In this document: in pieces, positions 49,978-63,684 of the stretch
Layout: the number at the start of each line of letters is the position of its first letter
How positions within the stretch are numbered: the first letter of the stretch is position 1
Assembly: GCF_026151205.1 (NCBI RefSeq)
Contig: NC_087074.1
Location: 21,185,765-21,249,764 of the forward strand
Direction of reading: 5' to 3'
Length of the DNA stretch: 64,000 bases
Origin: Bolinopsis microptera
Taxonomy: Eukaryota; Ctenophora; Tentaculata; Lobata; Bolinopsidae
Translations under genes and position numbers: made by a program
Notes under the pieces: model-generated
Seen by the model: only the letters and a program-made list of their open reading frames with translations
What the model was told of the DNA's origin: nothing
Databases searched by the model: none

Positions 49978-52396
49978 TTTCAAATATCATTAGGGGAGTT
50001 TGGTTTTAAGGGGTAGGAAGTTAAAAAGAATGGCCATAAGGGTAAATTAAACAATTTTGAAACTTTTTTTTTTTTTAATGATAACAATTTTTCTTGATTG
50101 AAACGTAGGGGGGAGAATTTATCTTCATTGGTTAAGTTAAAGATGCACGAATCCCAAAAAATTACTGACGAAAAATATGAATAAAAGATCGCAAGAGGTC
50201 TTCTCCCTTTAAAGGGTGAACTATGTAGACGCTCCTTCTGGAATCAAGGATAAAAAAGTCCCGGCGCGGTATGGATACTGCAGAAATTTAGAGCACTGAT
50301 ACTCACCATTTGCTTCGCGTTTTGTCAAGTCTTTTCGTTAAAGAGTTATTTGGCCAGTGCCATGACAAGGCCATGACTTTGCCTTTCCCAATGACCATTG
50401 TCTTTTCGACAAAAACAATGATGGGTTTAAAAAACGGGGTCTAGGATGGGGGAGAAGTCTATGAAAAAGGTCATAAGAGCGCAACGTAGCTTTCCCCGTT
50501 TCTTTCTTAAAGATCCTGGTCGGCTCTCAGATCTGAGCTATGGCCCCAAAATGATGACTAGGATATGAGTTCATGTGTTGCGCGAAAGCTGCGCTGAATT
50601 GGCCTTTAACACCACCCCTACTGTCGTTACCCATCCTATGACTTTAGGGCGGACCTTTCCCCAAAGAATGGATCTGGCAAGTCGAAAAACAAGTACCGCA
50701 TGTAACATAAAGCCTTTTTCGTGCTTACACTGAACAAAATTTGTTACAGCCCCCCTCTGGCATAAGACGGGGGCTAAATCACAAAAATTAACAGGGATCG
50801 GATTGAACGGGAAAAAAAACATAAATTTGCAGAGATCGTTGGCTAAGATTATATTTCGTAAAAGAAAGGAAAAAGGTTTGGGTAAGACGGAAGTTCAACA
50901 AGCCTAAACTTCGACTATGTCGAATAGAGTACGGTCCGGCTTTAGTTCGACACGTCAGAAGTTCGTGTCGAGAGTACTGTCGAACTTAGTAGTGAATCAT
51001 TTGCCCAGGACCACTGACCATACAAATGCAATTCATAGCCATGACCCGTTATCTCTCAACAACAATGAATTTTTAAAATATTTGGGAAGCCCGGGGCCAT
51101 AGGATTGCAACAGGATCTCCAAGTTTATAATATAATGGCCACACTTTGGCACACCATTGTTTAGAGTGCCGCCAACGGAACTTTCCCAATCGTTACCCGA
51201 GTTACTTTATCTGAGAGCCAACCAGAATCCTCATATTAGGAAAACCTACCTCATAACGAGGATCGGTTGGCTCTCAAAAATCGCGGCAAAAGCTGTGAGC
51301 TATTGCTCCGGAAAAAAAAAAAAAACCACCACCCCCTGGGGGGCCCTCTGTGAGTACCGTTACGTGTGTCAGGCCTATATACTCACACAAGTTCTAAACA
51401 TGAGTATGGACCAGAGGGTGTAAAGATAGTGAGCCACAGGAAACACACCTCTACTATTAACTTAAACTTAACGTACAAAATAATGGTGGGACCCCCTTTT
51501 TTTTTTGCCCTGCATAAAAAAATTTCCCTCTTAAAACCCCAAAGAAAAAAAAAAAATCCCCCATTCCCCCTTTTTTTAATGTTCAGGTCTCACTTCTTTA
51601 TGAATAATTTTTACTTAGTTGAAATTATTTTTGATTTTCCTATAAGTAAATAAAACAAAATTTGGGGCCGGGGGGGGGGGTTAAACTTTTTAATATATTC
51701 CCATTTTTCCACGAACAAACCCCCTCGAAATAGTAAAAAGTCACCAAGCCTTTAAGCCAGGGACAAAAACTTTTTTTCTTGTGCGAGTAACCCCTTATAT
51801 CCCCAAGAATATCCTGTTTAAAATTAAACATTTGACTCTTTACAATTGGTCCCTAAATTTTATACTTTTGTCCCCCCCCAATTTCTAGCCCACAATCCAC
51901 CAGGGCTGGGAATCCTCAACGGGACCCCAGACAAAGACCGGGTCACTGAGGCTGCTCCAAACTCTATCACCCCTTTCTCCTGCCTGTAACGATTAGATCG
52001 GTCGGTCATTTTTTAAGATTTTTGCTTAAATTTTTAAAAAAAATTAACTATTCCTGTTTTGTGGTATAATCTTAGTTACCACAGTTACCACGTTACCACT
52101 AGTTAACTTTTTTCCCAAATAGTTACCACTTTTTACCACTCACCCCCCTCGCTACTATCAATATTTTCCTGAGTGGAAATGTGAGGGGGGGTGGTTTCTT
52201 TATAAAAAACCCACAAAGCAGTGTTGTATCTATGAGGGGGCCCGGAGGGGGGAAGATATTCCTCCAGTGCCTGGGTGTTCCGCGGAGCTCTTATCAGGTC
52301 GTTTTTCTCCGACTTCAATGATCTCCCTACCCCTTACCGGTAAGGGAAAATTTTTTAAAAAATTTTTTAAAAGGAAATTGGTTTAAAAAAGTTTTG

Positions 52397-52399
<3 letters not shown>

Positions 52400-52448
<49 letters not shown>
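52400..52448 (+). repeat. Poly-A run of about 49 nt
   Basis: An uninterrupted A run within low-quality DNA, followed by G/A-rich text and a C20 run at 52,551-52,571. It could mark a retro-insertion, but no element body is readable on either side. Confidence 0.6.
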
Positions 52449-52451
<3 letters not shown>

Positions 52452-55400
52452 GGGGAAATGGGAAAAGAAAAAGGGGGTGAATTTTCCCCTTTAAAACCGG
52501 TATTTTTTTTTAAAAAATTTAAATGACGGGGGAGCCAAAGGGGGGTAAAACCCCCCCCCCCCCCCCCCCCCAAAAAAATTTCAAAATTTACCGATTTTCC
52601 CCCAAAAGGGGGGCCCCGTAGGGGGGAACCCCCCCCCCCCCGGGGAAAAAGAGAAAAAAAAGCCAAAAACCCCCACAACCCACGCCAAGGGGGCATGCTT
52701 TTAACATCAACCCGACTCCCTTAACTTTTGGGGAAGGCGGGCCCAAACCAGACCAATTAGGAAAAGGGAGCTTAATGGATGATGTGGGGGCCCCCGAGGA
52801 AAGGGGGCCAAAAAGGGGTTGGGGTTTGGGGGGGAAAAGGACAACCGAAGCGCCCCATGAAAAAACCCCAACCAAAAGAAATCTTACTAACCCCCGCAAA
52901 ACCCCCTCCTTATTCCCAACGCCCACCGGGGGGGACCTCTATGACCCCCTTTAGGGGGCCCACAGGGACAAATTACCCAGGGGGCAAAAACAAGGAACCC
53001 TTAAAAGGGGGAGACCAAACCCTTTTCCAAAACCCCCCCAAAATTAGGGGGTTAGGCTTTTAATCAACCCCCTCCGGGAAATTTTTTTTTGGGGGGGGGC
53101 GTCTTTTTACCAGCCGGGGGGCGGGCTACGGGTTTTACTCTGGAATCCAGTTAAAAGGAGGGGGGACGGTTTTTTCACCCGGTAAGAGGGTGGAAACCAA
53201 AATTTAGGTGCAGGGAGTTAACTGGGGGTTATGGGCCCGAGGTCCAGGCCTTTTTCCCCAAAACCCTCCCCCCACATCTTTCTTCAAAAAAACCAAAATT
53301 TTTTTAAAGGCTGGGGGAAAAAAAAAAACGCCCAAAAGTTGGGTCCCGAAGCGGAGAAATGGGACGAAATTTGGGGGGTACAACCCCAGTTTAAGTAAGT
53401 TATTAGAAAGGTTAATTCACACTCTAGTTTTGAGGCCCTAAGGCTCCCAAAAAGGTGGTTTTTCAACTCTGGTTTTTTTAACTCAAGTCCAACCATAAAA
53501 TTTAAGAGACTGTCTTGGGAAACCCCTAGGGGAAATACAGGGGGGGGCCCCTTGGGCAAAAAAATAGGCTTACCGAAATCAGGTTTGAACTTTACCCCAC
53601 GATTTTTACTTTTCCCAAATTTTTTTGTTTTTTAAATTCCCAAAATAATAAAAAAAAACTTTTTCCCCCCCAGGTATGGGAGGGGTTTTTAAAATCCGTG
53701 GTTAGTGGGGGATTAGGCAGGAAAGGTTCCCCCCAAAGTCGGTCCCCGTTTAAAAATTTTTAACTCCCCCATTTTTTAAGTGAGGGAAAGATGTTTAGAG
53801 CCGACAAGGGAAACTTAGACCCAGGAGGGGGACTTTTTCTTTTTTTTTTTTGGGCCTTTTTCCCTTTTCTTCCTTTTTTTTTAAACCTTTTTTCCTTTTT
53901 TTTTTTTTTTTTTAAAATTTTTTTTAAAAACATTTTAAAAGAAACCAAAATTTTTTTTTTTAAAATTCAAATGAATCGGGGGTGGAGGGGTTAAAAATGG
54001 GTAGGGGGTTCCAGCATTCCCCTTTGGGAAAACAAGCGGGGGGGGGTACCATAAAAGGTCCTTAAAAGTTCAAACAGGGGTTTTTGTTTTTCCCAGGGAC
54101 TTTCTTTTCCGGCCTCTTTTTTCCGTTTTATTTTTTTTACCCCAAATTTTTCCCCCCTTTTTTTTTTCAATTTTTTTTAAAAAACAATAAAAGGAAGAAA
54201 CAAAATTTTTTCTTCCTAAGAGTTAAAAAAAGGGCCCGATGGCAGGGGAAAATTTGGAATTTCCCAAAAACCCGCAAACCCTCTATTGTGGAAATAACCG
54301 CAAAATACGGGGAACGGCATTTGGTTTGGGGGAAAAGCCCCAAAACCGGGGGGCCGTCCGACTTTCAAAAGGAACTTTAAAAGGGTTTTTAAGGAATTTG
54401 TTAGATTTAGGGGAATCTTAACCCCAAAAAAATTTTGGGAAAAAAAGGTTACAATTTTATACCGACCCGGGGTTTTTTTTTTAAAAGGTTGACCGTCCCC
54501 TCAATGAAATCCGGAAAATCCCCGATGCAGGACAAGATTTCTTTATCTGGAAACTGCCCTTTTTTGGGGAAACTTTCTTTTGGGGAAAGGGGCCAAAAAC
54601 CGTTTGGGCGTTTTTTTTTAAAAAAAGGAAATTTAGGGTTTTAAATTTGTTTGTTAAGCATTTAAAAATGTTTCGAATAAAGGTTTCCACGAACAACCGG
54701 TTTTAATTTTTTTCAAAAAACTTTTAAACCATTTCTATTTAAAATTTTTAAAAAACTCCTGGTTTCTTCAGAATTAAATTATTTTGGGGCATCCCGTTAA
54801 AAAAATTAAGAATCTTTAAATTGCTGGCAAACCGATTTTTTAAAAAATTTTAAATTTTTTCTTAAATTGAATTTTTAAATTTAAAAAATTTTGGGTAAAT
54901 TTTTTTTTGAAAAACAACCCCCCCGTTTTTTTTGTTTGACCAAACGGAGCTTATTTAAAAGACCTTTTATCATTGGGACAAAAAGTTTAATTAAATTTTT
55001 TAAATAAATTTTGGTTTTTTTTGAATTTTTTAAATTGAAAAATTTTTTAAATTTGAGGGGGGACTATAATTTAAAAACCACCCCTTTAATTAAATTCAAT
55101 AAATTAATAATTTTTATTTTTTAATTTTTGGTAGGTTGATTTTTTAAAAACCTTTTTTCCCCTTGTTTTTGACTGAATTTTTATTTTATACCCAAAATTT
55201 TTTTATAGCTAAATTTTTAATTGTAAAAATCAAATTTTTTAAAAACCAAATTTAAATAAAATTTTAAAAAATAAATTTGAGCTTTACTTATTTAAAAATT
55301 TTTTGGTTTTTATTGTAAAGGGTTTTTATGTTTTTCTAAAAAATAAAATATTTTTTTATTTTTATTTTAGGGTGTAATAAAAAATTTTTGAAAATTAAAA

Positions 55401-56194
55401 ACGAATTATTTTCTTTTTCTTAATATAATAATTTCCAAATTTTGTCCATTTTAAAAAAAACTAAGCTTTTATCTTAAATTTTTTAAATTTTTCAATTTAT
55501 AAAAAAAATTAAATTTTTTATCATACAATGGAAATTTAAAATACGATTAAAGGCCCTTTATTAAATTTCTACAAAGTTGGGGGGTTTTTGTAAAAAAAAT
55601 ATTTTTTAAAAAAGGGGGGAAACCTTTTTAAAATTAAAGAACAGGAAAAAACCTGTTCTTCAAAACAAACCTACCTTTTTTTATCAAAAAAAAATTTTTT
55701 TCCCGGGTTTTTTTTTTGGTTTTAAAAGTTTAAGGGGAAAATTGGGCTGTTTACAGGATAAAGGGGGGCCAAGAAACGCAAAAAAAACGGTCCATTTTTC
55801 GTTTTCAGTCATAACTTCTTTTTTCCCTAACGAACCGTTTGGTTTTAAAATTTTTTACCTAAAAAGGGGAAAAGGGTTTAAGAAAAGGTCAAGGGGATTC
55901 TTTTTTTTTGGGCCTTTATCAAATTTTTAACTTTGGAAACTTAAGGGGGGGCCTGTAAAAATCAACAAGTTTTGCCCAATTTCCCGGAAAAATGGTCCTT
56001 TTTAAAGAACTTTTAGTTTTCAAGGTACTTTGCCTCTCCAACACAAAAAAGTTTCATTTCATTTAAAAACGTTTTTAAAAATTTTTTAAAAACAATTTAA
56101 TTTTTTTTTTTTGGGGGTGCTTTTCAAATTTAAAAAATTTTTCAAAAGGGGGGTTTATCGTTGTGAAAAATGTTACTTACCTTAGTAATGTCAG

Positions 56195-56425
56195 GTTGCT
56201 GGCATAATAACACCGGTAACATAGGAGACTTTAACAGAATTGGACAGAAAAACCTGATCAACAAAGACGATTGTATAAGTTGGTGTAATGAAGAGGAACT
56301 TTGTCTAGCAGTACTTATAAGCCCAGCTCATTGGACCAGGAGGCAGTGTTATAGATTAAAGTACACGGACATTGGTTCCCGGTCGGGCTGGTTTACAGCT
56401 TATAAGTCATGTTTTGGGACCAAAG
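56195..56425 (+). CDS. PAN/apple-like domain exon of a surface-protein gene
   Basis: Acceptor TAATGTCAG and donor CAAAG/GTAAGA bound 231 nt, phase 1-1, 77 residues. Key features are an initial C-W, GDFNRIGQKNL, CISWCNEEELC, RRQCYRLKYTD and a closing YKSC: six cysteines spaced like a PAN/apple or related disulfide-rich adhesion module. It is the first clean exon after the noisy stretch. Exon phase and strand match the exons from 59,855 on, so it may belong to the same gene, with a LINE sitting in the intron between. Upstream exons are not readable. Confidence 0.65.
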
Positions 56426-56638: not shown

Positions 56639-59380
56639 TTTTTTGTTGGGGACCGGCCCGAAGTACCAGCCAATGTTTACTCAAAAAATAATATATATAA
56701 TAAGTGTTATCAATTCAAACTCAAAACTCATACAAGATTAGATCTCATTAAAACGATTAAAATGTATATAATAGAGCTTGTCGAAACAAAACATAGCTGA
56801 GCACATATAAAGTTGCCTTTAGCTGAAATTATCATATTAATATGCTTTTAGAGTTGTTAGAGTGGAAACAGGCGCATAGCTACTGCTAGCTAGCAATTCC
56901 AAAATTTTTAAAATTTAACGACTGTTATCAGTCGCATAGCGTCATGCCGTTTTTGCTGGCGAATTGATGGCAGTGTAACTGAGATGGTATGCAGTGAAAT
57001 TGATTCTGTGATGGCGTGCTTATGGGACAGAGTTATTATTAGCATTACGGTTGATGTTGCGCTCTGATTTCCTTAGTCCCGTTATATTGTATAACATAAA
57101 GTTAGGCCATTCGTCTGCAATGCCCTCGTTTTGTTGATCAATGAGCATGTTTTTTATGCACCTTTTGTAGATGTTAAGGTTGAATAGACTTGGCAAGGAA
57201 GTTGCTGCGACACTATATCTGTTTATTGCTAATAGTGGACCTTTGTAGAATACTGAATTATTGTAAGGGTGTTTACCGTATTCATCTGACCATAAAGTTG
57301 TAAGACTCGAATCCGGATCGGCGACGTTAAATATTGGTGCACTGTTAGGTATTGTTTTCTTTATAGAGGGAGGCACTAGACTTGGGAAGTTTTTTAGCTT
57401 ATGTATAAAAACTAATGCGTTCTTCACGATGATACTTTGAACTGTCAATATTTTGTGTACATAGAAACCAGACTTGGTACTTGCTGGTGGTGTACCATCT
57501 TTGTACCAGTAATTAACAAAACCTGGTAGTATTGCTCTAAGACCCATTTTCTGTTTAACAAATAGTGTTTCTATATGGGATTTGGCAGCAAAACCCCAGA
57601 CGAGGGAGCAGTAATTAAGGTGAGACTGCACAAAGCTGTGATATATTTGTAAACGTGCTTCCAGAGGCAAATATTTTTTAAGTTTGTACATGACTCCAAT
57701 GTATCTGGCCATTTTCATTTTCATGGCAGAAATATGTTGCGACCAGTTCAGTTTGTTATCTATTATAACACCTAAGAAACGGGCTTCTGTTTTTCTTTCG
57801 ATTGTGACACCAGAAATTACTACATCGCGATAAATGAGGTTTCTTTGTCGAGAAAAGATCATATAATTCGTTTTTTAAAGATTTAGAGCTAATCCGTTGT
57901 TATCTACCCATTTAACTAAGACATCGCTAAGAATTTTGAGCTTATCATAAACCTCGTTTATATTTTCTCCTGTTAGGAAAATGTTTGCATCATCTGCGTA
58001 CATGATGAAATTAGCTATTTCTGATATTTGAGGAAGATCGTTTATGTAGATTATAAAAAGGAGAGGTCCCAAAATTGAACCTTGGGGTACACCGTAAATA
58101 ATTGGATTGGCTGAGGATTCAGAGGATCCAATTGATACAAACTGGTTTCTGTTCATAAGATATGATTTAAACCAGTTTAAAGCTAGACCTCTTATGCCAT
58201 AGTGCTCGAGCTTATTCAGGAGTATGGAGTGATCCACAAGGTCAAAGGCTTTGCTAAAGTCAATCAAGAGGAGCAAAGTAACTTGCTTTTTAGACATTGA
58301 ATTGAGGATTCTGTCTTTAGCATTAAGAAGTGCATGTTCACAAGACCTACCTGGGCGGAAGCCGTATTGATTTTCACAAAGTATATTGTAGGTATCCAAG
58401 AAATTTATGACTCGATTGTGCATAAGCTTTTCGTAGACTTTTGAGAAAGTGGCAAGTAGAGATATCGGTCTGTAATTTTTGATGTCAGTTTTAGATCCAC
58501 CTTTATGTACAGGAACTACTTTTGCCGTTTTCAAGGCTTGGGGAAAGACCCCTTGTTCGAACGAGCTGTTAACAACGTGGGCCAATACAGTGGTAAAATT
58601 ATGACAGCTGTTGGCAATTTTGAGTGGTTGGATTTTGGTGTCAAGAGTAGCTTTATTCTTAAATAGGTTAATAACGTCTTGAACTTCGGTAGTTGTGACT
58701 GGTTTTATGTAGATACTATTTGGAGAAGGGTTACGTAGTGTCCCCTGGGCCCCACCAGGATCGAAAGTGGTCCTACTACTAATTTCAGATTTAATTTTTG
58801 GAGCGATGTTTGAGAAGTGATCATTAAATTTTTCTGCTACTGCTGCCGGAGTGCTGACTTGTCCGTTTTCGTCCGACAGTTTTATCGATGTAGGTTTGGC
58901 TGGTTTCCTATTCAGAAGTCCGTTAATCATCTGCCACTGCTTCTTAGAATTATCTTTGTGTTGTTCAAAGAATTTTTTGTAGTGTATGTTTTTGGCTTTG
59001 TCAACGTGTTTGGTGCAAAACTTTTTCAAACGGTCATATTTTAGCTGGTTCCTATCAACTGGTTCCTTAACAAAATCATGATATGCCTGATTTTTACGTT
59101 CTATAGCTTCTTCAAGCCAGGGCAGTATCCATGGTTTGGGATTAACACGTTCATTTTGTCTGCGCTCGGACTGTCTTTTTTTCGGGTAGGCAGCGTTATA
59201 AATCCTGTTGTAAGCCGAATTTAAACAATCAAACTGCTGGTTAGCATCAGGGGTATTTGTTAGTATTACAGACCAATTTTCTTCCATTATTAAATCTCTA
59301 AATTTATGGTTGTTGGCCTCATTAAAACTACGTACGTTGGTTTGTGTTGGATTTTGATTATAAGATGCGGAAGAGAAGAT
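56638..59380 (-). mobile_element. 5'-truncated non-LTR retrotransposon (LINE), CR1/Jockey-like
   Basis: On the minus strand the body runs from a linker and reverse transcriptase through a 3' region ending GGGCCGGTCCCCAAC plus A8 at 56,638-56,645. No endonuclease domain is present, so it is truncated at the 5' end, as LINE copies commonly are. The 5' border is placed at a hairpin at 59,381-59,416. I found no clear target-site duplication. It lies antisense in an intron of the plus-strand surface-protein gene. Confidence 0.8.
57020..59287 (-). pseudogene. LINE reverse-transcriptase ORF with a single in-frame stop
   Basis: The enzyme copies element RNA into DNA at the insertion site. Residues about 256-278 give KVVPVHKGG and NYRPISLL; 312-320 RPGRSCEHA; 343-353 DFSKAFDLVDH (palm motif A); 399-411 GVPQGSILGPLLF; 430-433 YADD (catalytic). 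After residue 470 a TAA at 57,875-57,877 interrupts. The same frame resumes as KTNYMIFSRQR and the thumb region FLGVIIDNKLNW and LNYCSLVWG, ending at 57,020, about 755 codons in all. The N-terminal 200 residues are the usual linker between endonuclease and RT. The listed first ATG is internal; the frame is open upstream to about 59,390. The family call (CR1/Jockey group) is by motif style only. Confidence 0.88.
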
Positions 59381-59416
59381 GCTGTTAGACTCAGTTTATA
59401 AACTGACTCTAACAGC
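59381..59416. repeat. 36-bp hairpin at the LINE 5' border
   Basis: GCTGTTAGACTCAGTTTA is followed directly by its reverse complement with one mismatch (18-bp arms, no loop). It lies where the LINE open frame ends. Confidence 0.85.
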
Positions 59417-59592: not shown

Positions 59593-59794
59593 ACGTGACG
59601 TCACTTAATACCAGACGTGACGTCACTTAATACCAGACGTGACGTCACTTAATACCAGACGTGACGTCACTTAATACCAGACGTGACGTCACTTAATACC
59701 AGACGTGACGTCACTTAATACCAGACGTGACGTCACTTAATACCAGACGTGACGTCACTTAATACCAGACGTGACGTCACTTATTAATACCACA
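59593..59794 (+). repeat. 22-bp minisatellite carrying nine CRE palindromes
   Basis: Nine tandem units of ACGTGACGTCACTTAATACC plus AG start every 22 bp from 59,593. Each holds the full cAMP-response element TGACGTCA (first at 59,596, last at 59,772). The last unit is altered at its end. CREB/ATF-type bZIP factors bind this palindrome in animals. It sits 60 bp before a probable exon, in the intron after the LINE. Regulatory use is inference. Confidence 0.95.
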
Positions 59795-59854: not shown

Positions 59855-60232
59855 TACCTTTACAAGTTAAAACCAACAGCGAGTTGCAGAGTCTAGATAA
59901 CCTGACAGTGTCCTTCTACTCTGCTTGGAAGTACAATGCAGGAAAAGTATGGATCAACTTCGGCGAAACTCTAAAATACAAACTCGACTGGTGCAAGCCT
60001 TCCTGGTCTAACTTCTCCATAACACCTCCCAGTGATGCAGACAAGATATGGCGTATCACCCTCACCAAAAGTGCAGATATCAGGCTTGTGATACACTGTA
60101 ACGAGGTGGAGGTGCTCAACACTCTGCTCTCAGACACAACGTGTGATTGGCGTAGATGGAGAAACATCTGGGGTAAAAATGTGACAAAAATAAGCTTCTC
60201 CTCCGACACTGCGTCAGATTACTATGGACCAA
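59855..60232 (+). CDS. Exon with an unrecognised beta-rich extracellular domain
   Basis: Acceptor CTGGCTTCAG and donor CCAA/GTAAAT bound 378 nt, phase 1-1, 126 residues. Features: LTVSFYSAWKYNAGKVWINF, a CKPSW segment, IWRITLTKSADIRLVIHCN, TTCDWRRW, VTKISFSSDTASDYYGP. Three cysteines and alternating hydrophobic strands suggest a beta-sandwich. The 'IhCN.vevl ... C...w ... DtASDyY' pattern seems to recur in invertebrate surface proteins, but I cannot name the family. It splices in frame to the sushi exon at 60,644. The start could also be a later AG at 59,865. Confidence 0.6.
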
Positions 60233-60643
60233 GTAAATTAAAAGCTTGTATTTTTAACCAGGCCAATATCAGTATATATATATATATTTTCAATATTGCT
60301 AGCATACTGAACACTGATAATGGGATTTCGAGAGTTTCAAGTATTAGATGTCATATTTAATCAGAACCAAAGTATGTTCCCCTCTGAGTTCTGACACTGT
60401 GTCTAAATAACTACTTTTGATAATTTCAATCGTGCTGCAAAATAATGTCGCTCACAATTGGTTTTAAGTATCGTTACTAATCAATTAAAAGTGCTTATTG
60501 ATCACAATTAAAAGTGCTTATTGATCACAATCCATTAATAATTGCAGTTACCTTGTTATCTTCTAATTTTAGGTGGACGGTAAATCCATAATTTTCATCA
60601 ATAATGCGAATAAAAAATCATTTGACATTACATCACTATGTAG
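60233..60643 (+). other. Intron with a 23-bp duplication
   Basis: Contains two exact tandem copies of CAATTAAAAGTGCTTATTGA plus TCA at 60,482-60,527. An alternative open stretch after TTCTAATTTTAG at 60,573 (VDGKSIIFINNANKKSFDIT) reaches a stop at 60,645 and does not keep phase with the neighbours, so it is not used in the gene model. Confidence 0.6.
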
Positions 60644-61960
60644 ATAGTTGCAGTGGACTAAAGGCTGAGTGGACGAGGACGATCGAAACGACAAGACAGT
60701 TCCCAATACTGTCAGGAACCGTGGTGGAAGTGACATGCTCGTACTCTGGAGCTCTCAACAAAGGGAGCAGTGAAGTTACATGCTCGTACTCTGGAGCTCT
60801 CAACAAAGGGAGCAGTGAAGTTACATGCTCGTACTCTGGAGCTCTCAACAAAGGGAGCAGTGAAGTGACATGCTCGTACTCTGGAGCTCTCAACAAAGGG
60901 AGCAGTGAAGTTACATGCTCGTACTCTGGAGCTCTCAACAAAGGGAGCAGTGAAGTTACATGCTCGTACTCTGGAGCTCTCAACAAAGGGAGCAGTGAAG
61001 TGACATGCTCGTACTCTGGAGCTCTCAACAAAGGGAGCAGTGAAGTGACATGCTCATACTCTGGAGCTCTCAACAAAGGGAGCAGTGAAGTTACATGCTC
61101 GTACTCTGGAGCTCTCAACAAAGGGAGCAGTGAAGTTACATGCTCGTACTCTGGAACTCTCAACAAAGGGAGCAGTGAAGTTACATGCTCGTACTCTGGA
61201 ACTCTCAACAAAGGGAGCAGTGAAGTTACATGCTCGTACTCTGGAGCTCTCAACAAAGGGAGCAGTGAAGTGACATGCTCGTACTCTGGAACTCTCAACA
61301 AAGGGAGCAGTGAAGTTACATGCTCGTACTCTGGAGCTTTCAACAAAGGGAGCAGTGAAGTGACATGCTCGTACTCTGGAGCTCTCAACAAAGGGAGCAG
61401 TGAAGTGACATGCTCGTACTCTGGAGCTCTCAACAAAGGGAGCAGTGAAGTGACATGCTCGTACTCTGAAGCTCTCAACAAAGGGAGCAGTGAAGTGACA
61501 TGCTCGTACTCTGGAGCTCTCAACAAAGGGAGCAGTGAAGTGACATGCTCGTACTCTGGAGCTCTCAACAAAGGGAGCAGTGAAGTTACATGCTCGTACT
61601 CTGGAGCTCTCAACAAAGGGAGCAGTGAAGTTACATGCTCGTACTCTGGAGCTCTCAACAAAGGGAGCAGTGAAGTTACATGCTCGTACTCTGGAGCTCT
61701 CAACAAAGGGAGCAGTGAAGTTACATGCTCGTACTCTGGAGCTCTCAACAAAGGGAGCAGTGAAGTTACATGCTCGTACTCTGGAGCTCTCAACAAAGGG
61801 AGCAGTGAAGTTACATGCTCGTACTCTGGAGCTCTCAACAAAGGGAGCAGTGAAGTGACATGCTCGTACTCTGGAGCTCTCAACAAAGGGAGCAGTGAAG
61901 TGACATGCACGTCTGGAGACGCTTTTACTCATCTAGCGGAGCCTAGTTGTCCAAAACCAG
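60644..61960 (+). CDS. Sushi exon expanded by a 26-copy in-frame minisatellite
   Basis: Acceptor CATCACTATGTAG and donor CCAG/GTTAGT bound 1,317 nt, phase 1-1, 439 residues. Outside the repeat the exon is an ordinary sushi module: first cysteine in SCSGLKAEWTRT, second in VVEVTC, third in SEVTC, fourth in AEPSC. Between cysteines 2 and 3 the 15-residue segment VTCSYSGALNKGSSE is repeated 26 times, where a normal module would have it once. Each copy adds one cysteine and several Ser/Thr sites. The start was chosen because it keeps the first cysteine and joins the previous exon in phase. The protein is presumably extracellular; the long repeat may form a stalk or an aberrant fold. Confidence 0.75.
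60730..61904 (+). repeat. 45-bp coding minisatellite, 26 full copies
   Basis: The period is exactly 45 bp from 60,730 (first GTG) to the partial copy starting at 61,900. Copies are nearly identical; the few variants are GTT/GTG for Val, GCT/ACT (Ala/Thr), one TTT (Phe), one GAA (Glu) and one CAT for CGT-type change at 61,051. Near identity points to very recent expansion or homogenisation. Long spurious frames on the minus strand come from the repeat. Confidence 0.97.
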
Positions 61961-62019
61961 GTTAGTTGTCCAAAACCAGGTTAGTTGTCCAAAACCAAGT
62001 TAGTTGTCCAAAACCAGGT
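61944..62019 (+). repeat. Splice-donor region repeated four times, 19-bp unit
   Basis: TAGTTGTCCAAAACCAGGT occurs at 61,944, 61,963, 61,982 (one change, AAGT) and 62,001. The first copy spans the end of the sushi exon and its donor (CCAG/GTTAGT). Copies 2 and 4 keep the same CAG/GTTA context in the intron. Using any downstream donor would include an in-frame TAG at 61,963. Confidence 0.9.
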
Positions 62020-62242
62020 TACAAGTTTTAGTATGATACCTATGCTTGAGGTTAATACGATGCAACAACTTAAACTCGTATATTGAATTTTTGAAGCAAA
62101 CCCAAAATTGGGTAGATTCAAGAGTGGACCCGGGACCGTCGCAGATGTCCCCTTTTTTTACTCATTTCTACTTTTAGAGTGCAAATATGAAATTTTAAAA
62201 AGGAGCCAAATATTTTTAGCATTCTGATTATCTAATTTTCAG

Positions 62243-62475
62243 GTGGTCTGGGACAAGGCTGTGCTTCTGAAACCTATCGAACGCAGTACGGAACATTCAG
62301 CCACGGCTGGCTGGGGCTCGGTAAAAGCTCACAGTACAAGAAATGTCAGTTTGATGACTTCACGGCGGTTTTCACTTGCAAGATGAAAAGGAACAAGGAG
62401 TTATATGTGGAGAGGACTTACTATTGCAAGAACACTAAAAATACGATAGGAATAGAACAACTAGCCAACGATAAG
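62243..62475 (+). CDS. Cys-rich exon, HRM-like stalk segment
   Basis: Acceptor CTAATTTTCAG and donor AAG/GTTATT bound 233 nt, entry phase 1, exit phase 0, 78 residues. It contains GCASETYRTQYGTFSHGWLG, YKKCQFDD, FTCKMKRN and YYCKN. The 'C ... yG.f.W ... C ... C ... C' layout resembles the hormone-receptor-like segment that links N-terminal modules to the GAIN domain in adhesion GPCRs. The end IGIEQLANDK fits the start of a helical GAIN subdomain. The resemblance is moderate and is my inference. Confidence 0.6.
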
Positions 62476-62616: not shown

Positions 62617-62855
62617 ACTGCCTCGAATGAAGATAAGACGGCACAGATGGAGAAGATGACAAATAATGAGGGTATGAACGGTATCGGTGACGTAGAGGCG
62701 GTGTCTAATGTTCTAAAATCCATCGTCAAAAGCGGGGAAATCTCCGAGGCAGTGGCCCAGAGCGTCCTAAACACCGTGTCTAAACTTGTGAAGTCCGACT
62801 TTAAAACAGCTGATAACGACACTGAAACCCAGTTCGCCAGCAAGATCTGTGACGG
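62617..62855 (+). CDS. GAIN-like helical exon
   Basis: Acceptor CATTCTCCTCAG and donor GACGG/GTACAT, 239 nt, phase 0 to 2. Residues such as DVEAVSNVLKSIVKSGEISE, AVAQSVLNTVSKLVKSDF and DTETQFASKICDG form amphipathic helices like subdomain A of the GAIN fold, the autoproteolysis domain of adhesion GPCRs and polycystins. No cleavage motif is expected this early. It is preceded and followed by exons in matching phase. Confidence 0.6.
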
Positions 62856-63013
62856 GTACATTGTTTTGATTTGTTTTTGTGAGAATTGTACCATACTTCA
62901 AAATTTGTCGACATTCATACATTACTGAATCATTTCTGGAATTTATTTCATCATTTGTACATTAAAAGACACAAGCCACAAATCATAACCTATAAATAGA
63001 TCTAACCGATCAG

Positions 63014-63248
63014 TTTGGTGACTCAGACTGTTAACGTTGTTAAGCAAACTGTTGTCAAGAACAAGATTATCAAGTCTCCTCGCATAGCTGTGATCGATGT
63101 TAAGAAAGATGCAGATGCTGGTGAACCCAGCAGTAATGGAGTTGTCGCCCTCACCCTTTCTAAGGCAAGTCGAGGTGGCAAGGACCTTCAAGGTTGCGAA
63201 GTAGACTCTGGATCCGGCGATGACGAAGAGGAAAACACGATTCTATTG
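63014..63248 (+). CDS. GAIN-like exon 2
   Basis: Acceptor TCTAACCGATCAG and donor TTG/GTCAGA, 235 nt, phase 2 to 0. It reads LVTQTVNVVKQTVVKNKIIK, SPRIAVIDVKKDADAG, GVVALTLSK, then an acidic loop GSGDDEEEN. The choice of 63,014 over the AG at 63,025 rests on phase continuity with the donor at 62,856. The order helix, strand and acidic loop fits the transition between GAIN subdomains. Confidence 0.58.
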
Positions 63249-63381
63249 GTCAGAATTTATTTATTAGTACTCGCTTAACAGTACCTATAGAATTCATACA
63301 GTAGTTATTAGTATTGCAATGCGTAAATATTATGAATTTAACATCGTATCATTAAAATATGTTACTATGAAATTTATTCAG

Positions 63382-63684
63382 ATCGAGACAAAGTCGGGAG
63401 AAAAGAACGTAGATGTGGACATGGCCGTGGTCCTCATCACAGACTCGACACTTATGCCCGACAGGACGACTTCAATCTTGACAAAAGAGGAAGACGAAGA
63501 CGACAAGGAAGCCGTCACTAAAATCATGGATGACCTGAAGAATGATTTGGAGGACGCAACCAAGAAAGATGGCGAGGACACCAAAAAGAGCTTTGTTAAC
63601 TCATTCATCACTGAGGTCAAAGTTCAAAACGCAGTACCTGATGACTTCAAGCTAAATGTCTTCATGAAGCCCACCATTAATATA
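63382..63684 (+). CDS. GAIN-like exon 3, acidic
   Basis: Acceptor GAAATTTATTCAG and donor ATA/GTGAGT, 303 nt, phase 0-0, 101 residues. It begins IETKSGEKNVDVDMAVVLIT, has an acidic helix (KEEDEDDKEAVTKIMDDLKN), then SFVNSFITEVKV and FKLNVFMKPTIN. No GPS cleavage motif or transmembrane segment is reached before the window ends, so receptor identity remains open. Confidence 0.62.

Follow-up and report, generated by a model that had tools for sequence, protein, structure and literature searches.

An exon of an adhesion GPCR gene in the ctenophore Bolinopsis microptera holds what appears to be a young coding minisatellite, and unexpanded copies of the same exon persist in the same genome. The exon lies in the window, by which is meant the whole 64,000-nt stretch analysed here (G000:C3:21185765-21249764; contig NC_087074.1 of assembly GCF_026151205.1), and the window's copy of the gene is designated A. 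The account preferred here, to which a probability of about 0.75 is given, is that the array arose by slippage or unequal crossover from a near-repeat encoding the motif EVTC, and that, in its effect on the receptor, it is likely to be neutral or to reduce function in part.

The array occupies positions 60727 to 61896 (+ strand) and consists of 26 units of 45 bp (EVTCSYSGALNKGSS), as judged by a tandem-repeat call, by reading the units and by a genome-wide search for their junction. TRF reports a period of 45, 26.4 copies, 98% matches and 0% indels at 60727-61912, and an unbroken reading frame (60592-61965) runs through the whole; the 26 full units are followed by a 12-bp edge, GAAGTGACATGC (61897-61908, +), which encodes EVTC including Cys3 and is, as the downstream copy of a 12-bp repeat, the proposed seed of the array, and then by unique sequence. 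Minisatellites, or VNTRs, are tandem units of roughly 10-100 bp, and an array of 45 bp x 26.4 is one by that definition. The sushi exon that holds it is 1317 nt long (60644-61960, +), in phase 1 at both ends, with an acceptor (GTAG) and a donor (GTTAGT); the array is placed between Cys2 and Cys3, and both ends of the domain are present. A sequence-only reading of this stretch had described an in-frame, 26-copy coding minisatellite of nearly identical copies between cysteines 2 and 3, with both domain ends kept, and the repeat call, the open frame and its conceptual translation bear it out. Its estimate of "about 26" added cysteines holds in that many were added, and needs correcting in number: the exon of A encodes 29, an odd total, against 4 in the one-unit exon (192 nt) of copy D, that is, 25 more cysteines and 375 more residues. 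(In the second expanded copy, C, the total is 38, an even number: 34 more cysteines and 510 more residues than in D.) Pfam matches of the whole array ORF (M60-like_N, BTB_KLHL33, IBR_1, RnaseA, DUF1079) were set aside as driven by the repeat: no stretch passes alone.

What kind of gene carries this exon? As read from its sequence, it is an adhesion GPCR gene. Thirteen exons, with splice sites read by eye, extend from 56195 to 66048 (window numbering continued past the window's end); AG precedes every exon, GT follows every exon but the last, and the joined exons form a single open frame of 1420 codons that ends in a stop. Their order is PAN-like, an exon matching nothing in Pfam, sushi, cysteine-containing, three presumed GAIN exons, GPS, 7TM and tail. 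The PAN-like exon (56195-56425, +) matches PF08277 at E 0.016 and 15.5 bits, below the cut-off of 21.1. The extracellular exon at 59855-60232 (+) is about 99% identical in copies B, C and D and finds no counterpart in Pfam at a limit of E 1; the idea that it is a farnesoic-acid-methyltransferase-like (FA) domain was dropped on that account. The sushi exon is followed by the cysteine-containing exon (62243-62475, +) and by the presumed GAIN region (62617-63684, +; exons 62617-62855, 63014-63248 and 63382-63684), which is identified by its position before the GPS and by one weak Pfam match, to GPR128 GAIN subdomain A (E 0.25, below the cut-off), with which the position fits. The Pfam score of the GPS, 20.5 bits, is slightly under the cut-off of 22.5; read directly, the site is HNT followed by SFAVLM, which is the canonical H-X-S/T motif as defined in an excerpt of PMC13062082. 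The transmembrane domain is a strong match: 7tm_2 is matched at 2.9e-37 (128.7 bits against a cut-off of 20.6), as a secretin-family 7TM should be, and the best PDB matches are ADGRG6 (7.9e-31), ADGRG2, ADGRG4 and ADGRD1. With the HNT of the GPS, this supports the "surface receptor" of the sequence-only reading and makes it an adhesion GPCR. With its named relatives the receptor shares the H-X-T of the GPS, the TSFAVLM stretch and the secretin-family 7TM; it differs from known adhesion GPCRs in an ectodomain composed of PAN-like, Pfam-unmatched and sushi exons, with a minisatellite in the last. At least 48 matches to 7tm_2 were found in the genome, those of A, B, C, D and E among them. Among the papers from a literature search on adhesion GPCRs in ctenophores, with subscription journals mostly outside its scope, PMC12716839 had nothing on point.

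The name "sushi" is owed to a wider set of relatives and not to the window sequence itself. Collapsed to one unit, the window's own domain is without a Pfam match within a limit of E 1; of its 23 close relatives two match PF00084 (Sushi), the better at E 0.027 (limit E 1), and a profile of the 23 has no significant match (alpha-bungarotoxin 0.22, factor H 0.82, factor XIII B 2.8). With a set of 27 from the same genome, made up of 12 of the close relatives and 15 more distant ones, PF00084 is matched by 13, the best at 9.7e-08 (limit E 1), and the profile matches solved CCP modules (the whole multi-module chains of factor H at 2.4e-20 and of CR2 at 2.7e-17, a two- to three-module factor H chain at 1.3e-06), and some antibody chains likewise (best 0.0021). 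The sushi call of the sequence-only reading follows from the wider family and not from the window's sequence taken alone. The one-unit forms have four cysteines at conserved positions, with a fifth in some; in Sushi/CCP/SCR domains the disulfides join C1 to C3 and C2 to C4. AlphaFold2 gives a poor model of the one-unit domain (mean pLDDT only 49.6).

The copies of the gene within this one genome serve as controls. Those compared are A, C (on contig C11), B, D and E, together with the more diverged F and G. C has 35 units and A 26, while B, D, E and G have one each, as does F when it is read directly (the automatic count of 0 for F is due to its many small indels). In the assembly searched (264,652,675 bases in 232 contigs), the junction of two units, allowing up to 3 mismatches, occurs at A (25 times) and at C (34 times) and at no third locus, while the reversed control pattern has 0 matches, which puts the repeat well outside what chance would give; the pattern was taken from the arrays of A and C and would miss one in a relative that has diverged greatly. 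A search with the sushi exon itself yielded at least 156 matches from 478 candidates, 150 of them scored, and the family is therefore larger than listed. The best 94 of these matches (E up to 3.3e-13) represent 92 loci. Eighty-eight are full-length, spanning the query with 174-189 nt and hence one unit each; the remaining six are A twice, C twice, E (one unit, its exon start deleted) and a partial match on C12. Among these 92 loci, then, 2 are expanded, 89 have one unit and 1 is partial. The 88 one-unit matches are dispersed over 13 contigs, 12 of them large and the other small; inspection by eye places a listed 7tm_2 match within about 10 kb for only some of the listed sushi-exon matches. From 35, 26 or 1 units in close copies, it appears very likely that the length of the repeat is labile.

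In the roughly 3.4 kb downstream, the divergence of C is 0.27% from B and D (0.24-0.27% among B, C and D) and 2.2% from A; over 1.9 kb, E is 0.74-0.79% from B, C and D (0.79% from C) and 2.5% from A. Outside the sushi exon, dN/dS for A against B, C, D and E is 0.39, 0.28, 0.37 and 0.55, values that probably reflect, for the most part, time before the arrays existed; A against F gives 1.18 over 393 codons of an error-rich copy. The tested exons of A, C and D appear intact. Some copies look broken: in B an insertion displaces one 7TM acceptor, with stops in that exon and in the tail as aligned, and E, again as aligned, has stops where a deletion fuses two exons. In E and F a deletion has removed the start of the sushi exon and some of the exon before it. 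Paralogues at C3:18.907 Mb and C3:14.578 Mb have a common deletion that fuses the preceding exon to a single repeat unit. That the gene unit is a transposon was considered and set aside: the segments common to B, C and D are spread across more than 20 kb, and the left boundary of A adjoins a poor-looking stretch. Segmental duplication is preferred as the putative origin of the copies.

How would such an array start? In the one-unit state a 12-bp near-direct repeat (GAAGTnACATGC, which codes for EVTC) stands on either side of the interval. Throughout the sushi-exon family Cys2 and Cys3 are each preceded by EVT or a close variant, and the distance between the two cysteines is exactly 45 nt in all 23 of the one-unit relatives that were compared (B, D, G and 20 others). 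In the one-unit exon the stretch of 12 bases coding for EVTC at Cys2 recurs, nearly identically, 45 bases further on, at Cys3. Slippage or unequal crossover between these near-repeats is the inferred mechanism of growth; with a unit of 45 bp, each added copy would leave the frame preserved. The 12-mers ending at Cys2 and Cys3 match at 7-11 of 12 positions in the 23 one-unit relatives, and at 11/12 in D, the unexpanded near-twin of C; three others of the 23 also match at 11/12, and all are unexpanded, so the near-repeat is insufficient by itself for expansion. The proposal resembles the Haber and Louis model, as cited in an excerpt of PMC6947457, in which minisatellites are born from flanking repeats of 5-10 bp: in both, a short repeat flanks the motif that is amplified. 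It differs in that the flanking repeat here belongs to a coding motif and that unexpanded copies, still present in this one genome, serve for comparison.

Did this happen once or twice? Silent variation at the Val codon of the unit provides the evidence. GTA is found in 9 of the 35 units of C and in none of the 26 of A, and the downstream edge of the array has GTA in C and GTG in A, so that the distribution of GTA matches each array's own edge. The upstream edge of A has GTG, against GTT in B-F. The privacy of GTA to C, together with the place of C among the one-unit copies B and D, with A 2.2% away, suggests two separate expansions as the simpler history. GTG is nevertheless present in both arrays (11/26 units of A, 5/35 of C), as is GTT, and shared array ancestry or interlocus conversion is a possible alternative. 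A separate rival is one older array that has collapsed to a single unit in B, D, E and F, a history that the common GTT and GTG would accommodate; it is rather unlikely, since it requires several complete collapses, leaves GTA private to C, and meets a family in which 88 of the 94 best matches, mostly more distant relatives, have one unit. The growth was probably recent, since C is only 0.27% from the one-unit B and D over 3.4 kb.

A skeptic may ask whether the arrays exist at all. The published B. microptera assembly was made with wtdbg and TGS-Gapcloser and polished with Illumina reads by Pilon, according to an excerpt of PMC10232365. Short-read polishing may have homogenised the units of the array, and the copy number may be off. 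The stronger claim, that long-read assembly and short-read polishing of this kind produced both the copy number and the uniformity, could also point to poor-looking sequence elsewhere in the window (about 1-33.5 kb and 52-56 kb). It is nonetheless very improbable: A and C differ in copy number and in private variants, and there are zero indels across 1186 bp. Assemblers, moreover, usually collapse tandem arrays and do not invent them. The same differences between A and C make it unlikely that assembly has inflated a true array of one or two units; the array itself is probably real.

(A technical point about the surroundings: positions 1-33500 of the window are a tandem satellite of about 1.82 kb, with about 9% mismatch and 5.6% indel against the consensus in the 13 copies measured; more of it recurs near 46.6-47.5 kb and, in inverted pieces, near 44.1-44.7 kb, and it may in part be unpolished long-read sequence. 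Positions 52000-56000, directly left of the start of homology with the paralogues, are ridden with homopolymers, 28.0 runs of 6 or more per kb as against 1.0-8.8 in the other fifteen 4-kb bins. Stop-interrupted, LINE-like reverse-transcriptase ORFs, identified by inspection in an intron (57020-59395, - strand), are absent from the aligned copies B-F. A tRNA scan of the 64-kb window found none.)

The coding array has neighbors of its own kind. An intronic minisatellite of 22 bp (59593-59783, +) comprises 8.7 copies, 100% identical, each unit with a perfect TGACGTCA, a CRE-like sequence; counted with up to 3 mismatches, there are 8 copies in A, 6 in B, 6 in C, 4 in D, 5 in E and 2 in F. Another, of 19 bp and 4.1 copies (61944-62021, +), repeats the 3' end of the sushi exon with its splice donor, and numbers 4, 4, 5, 3, 4 and 1 copies in A to F by the same count; an in-frame TAG follows the first donor, so that use of any later one would include it. 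Since the intronic and the donor-spanning arrays also vary among copies, the common factor looks like local tandem-repeat mutability rather than coding function.

The protein of the units is almost invariant, identical in all 35 units of C and in 21 of the 26 of A; leaving the Val codon aside, C has zero variant positions and A has one synonymous and three nonsynonymous ones, which gives no sign of selection on the array. The sequence-only reading had offered a generator of diversity for self/non-self recognition. With almost invariant units, neighboring minisatellites that vary too, an exon that might be skipped in frame, and only 2 of the 92 loci of the best matches expanded, that idea is not supported; its "disulfide-rich stalk" remains speculation. 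Literature searches on ctenophore allorecognition and fusion, subscription journals mostly excepted, listed a few papers at most. A more general version credits the long, variable arrays of A and C to selection for reach, avidity, force coupling or diversity of recognition. It can call upon a frame intact through 61 units at two loci, the constraint (dN/dS) on the rest of the gene, the two suggested expansions, and the altered signalling that accompanies a change of ectodomain length in the Drosophila adhesion GPCR dCIRL (PMC5548486, in excerpt). Yet a 45-bp unit keeps the frame automatically on expansion, the unit protein hardly varies (35/35, 21/26), 89 of the 92 close loci among the best matches have one unit and 1 is partial, the neighboring minisatellites vary as well, and the cysteine total of A, 29, is odd; we consider such selection distinctly unlikely.

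If not selected, how is so large an insertion borne? On the preferred reading the array would be translated and the receptor would tolerate the insert, and two routes to tolerance might be imagined. Extending the N-terminal fragment by 375-510 residues might do no more than loosen the coupling of the adhesion domains to the tethered agonist. Elongation of the dCIRL ectodomain weakens the mechanosensory response (PMC5548486, as excerpted), and by that analogy loosened coupling would be the most likely mechanism, provided that the array is translated. Alternatively, the sushi exon might be skipped in frame. Taken to its conclusion, skipping would make the array an untranslated passenger of mature A and C transcripts, an explanation that is compatible with the proposed DNA origin and that we hold to be possible but less likely than not. 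Skipping would keep the frame, since both ends of the exon are in phase 1 in A and its length is a multiple of 3 in each of A (1317), C (1722) and D (192); E and F, moreover, exist with the beginning of this exon deleted along with some of the one before. On the other hand, acceptor and donor are both present in A, and E, with stops in its fused exon as aligned, may be a broken copy and no model of tolerance. By either route, the insert would probably be neutral or cost the receptor some of its function, rather than form a selected diversity system. One may also think, as a long shot, of a length switch: the EVTC motif, which the sushi consensus has at Cys2 and repeats 45 bases downstream, at Cys3, would seed the array, and some members of the family would repeatedly gain and shed loop units and so alter ectodomain reach or mechanical tension between individuals.

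Neither coding minisatellites nor their origin in short flanking repeats is new to science. The closest parallel is the 48-bp VNTR in exon 3 of human DRD4, a coding minisatellite of 2-11 repeats in a GPCR (PMC3877354, in part). The units are of nearly the same size, 48 and 45 bp, and in each receptor copy number alters the length of the protein. The DRD4 repeat is in a disordered third cytoplasmic loop and has documented alleles (same excerpt); here, instead, the repeat is in an extracellular domain of the disulfide type, reaches 26 and 35 units, adds one cysteine with each, and is seen as paralogues in one assembly. Literature searches, in which subscription journals were mostly out of scope, gave no match for a coding minisatellite grown in frame by slippage, and, for a minisatellite together with a sushi domain, one paper, listed as dealing with Eimeria drug resistance.

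What the B. microptera genome offers is the state before and the state after, in copies that are 0.27% apart over 3.4 kb, and with the two side by side the birth of a coding minisatellite can be studied with unusual ease. Within this adhesion GPCR, a classic disulfide domain has its number of cysteines thrown off by the insert, and A, C and the one-unit D are a natural contrast for how far the ectodomain of such a receptor stretches. If individuals differ in the length of the array, they would provide a natural series for force-coupling experiments.
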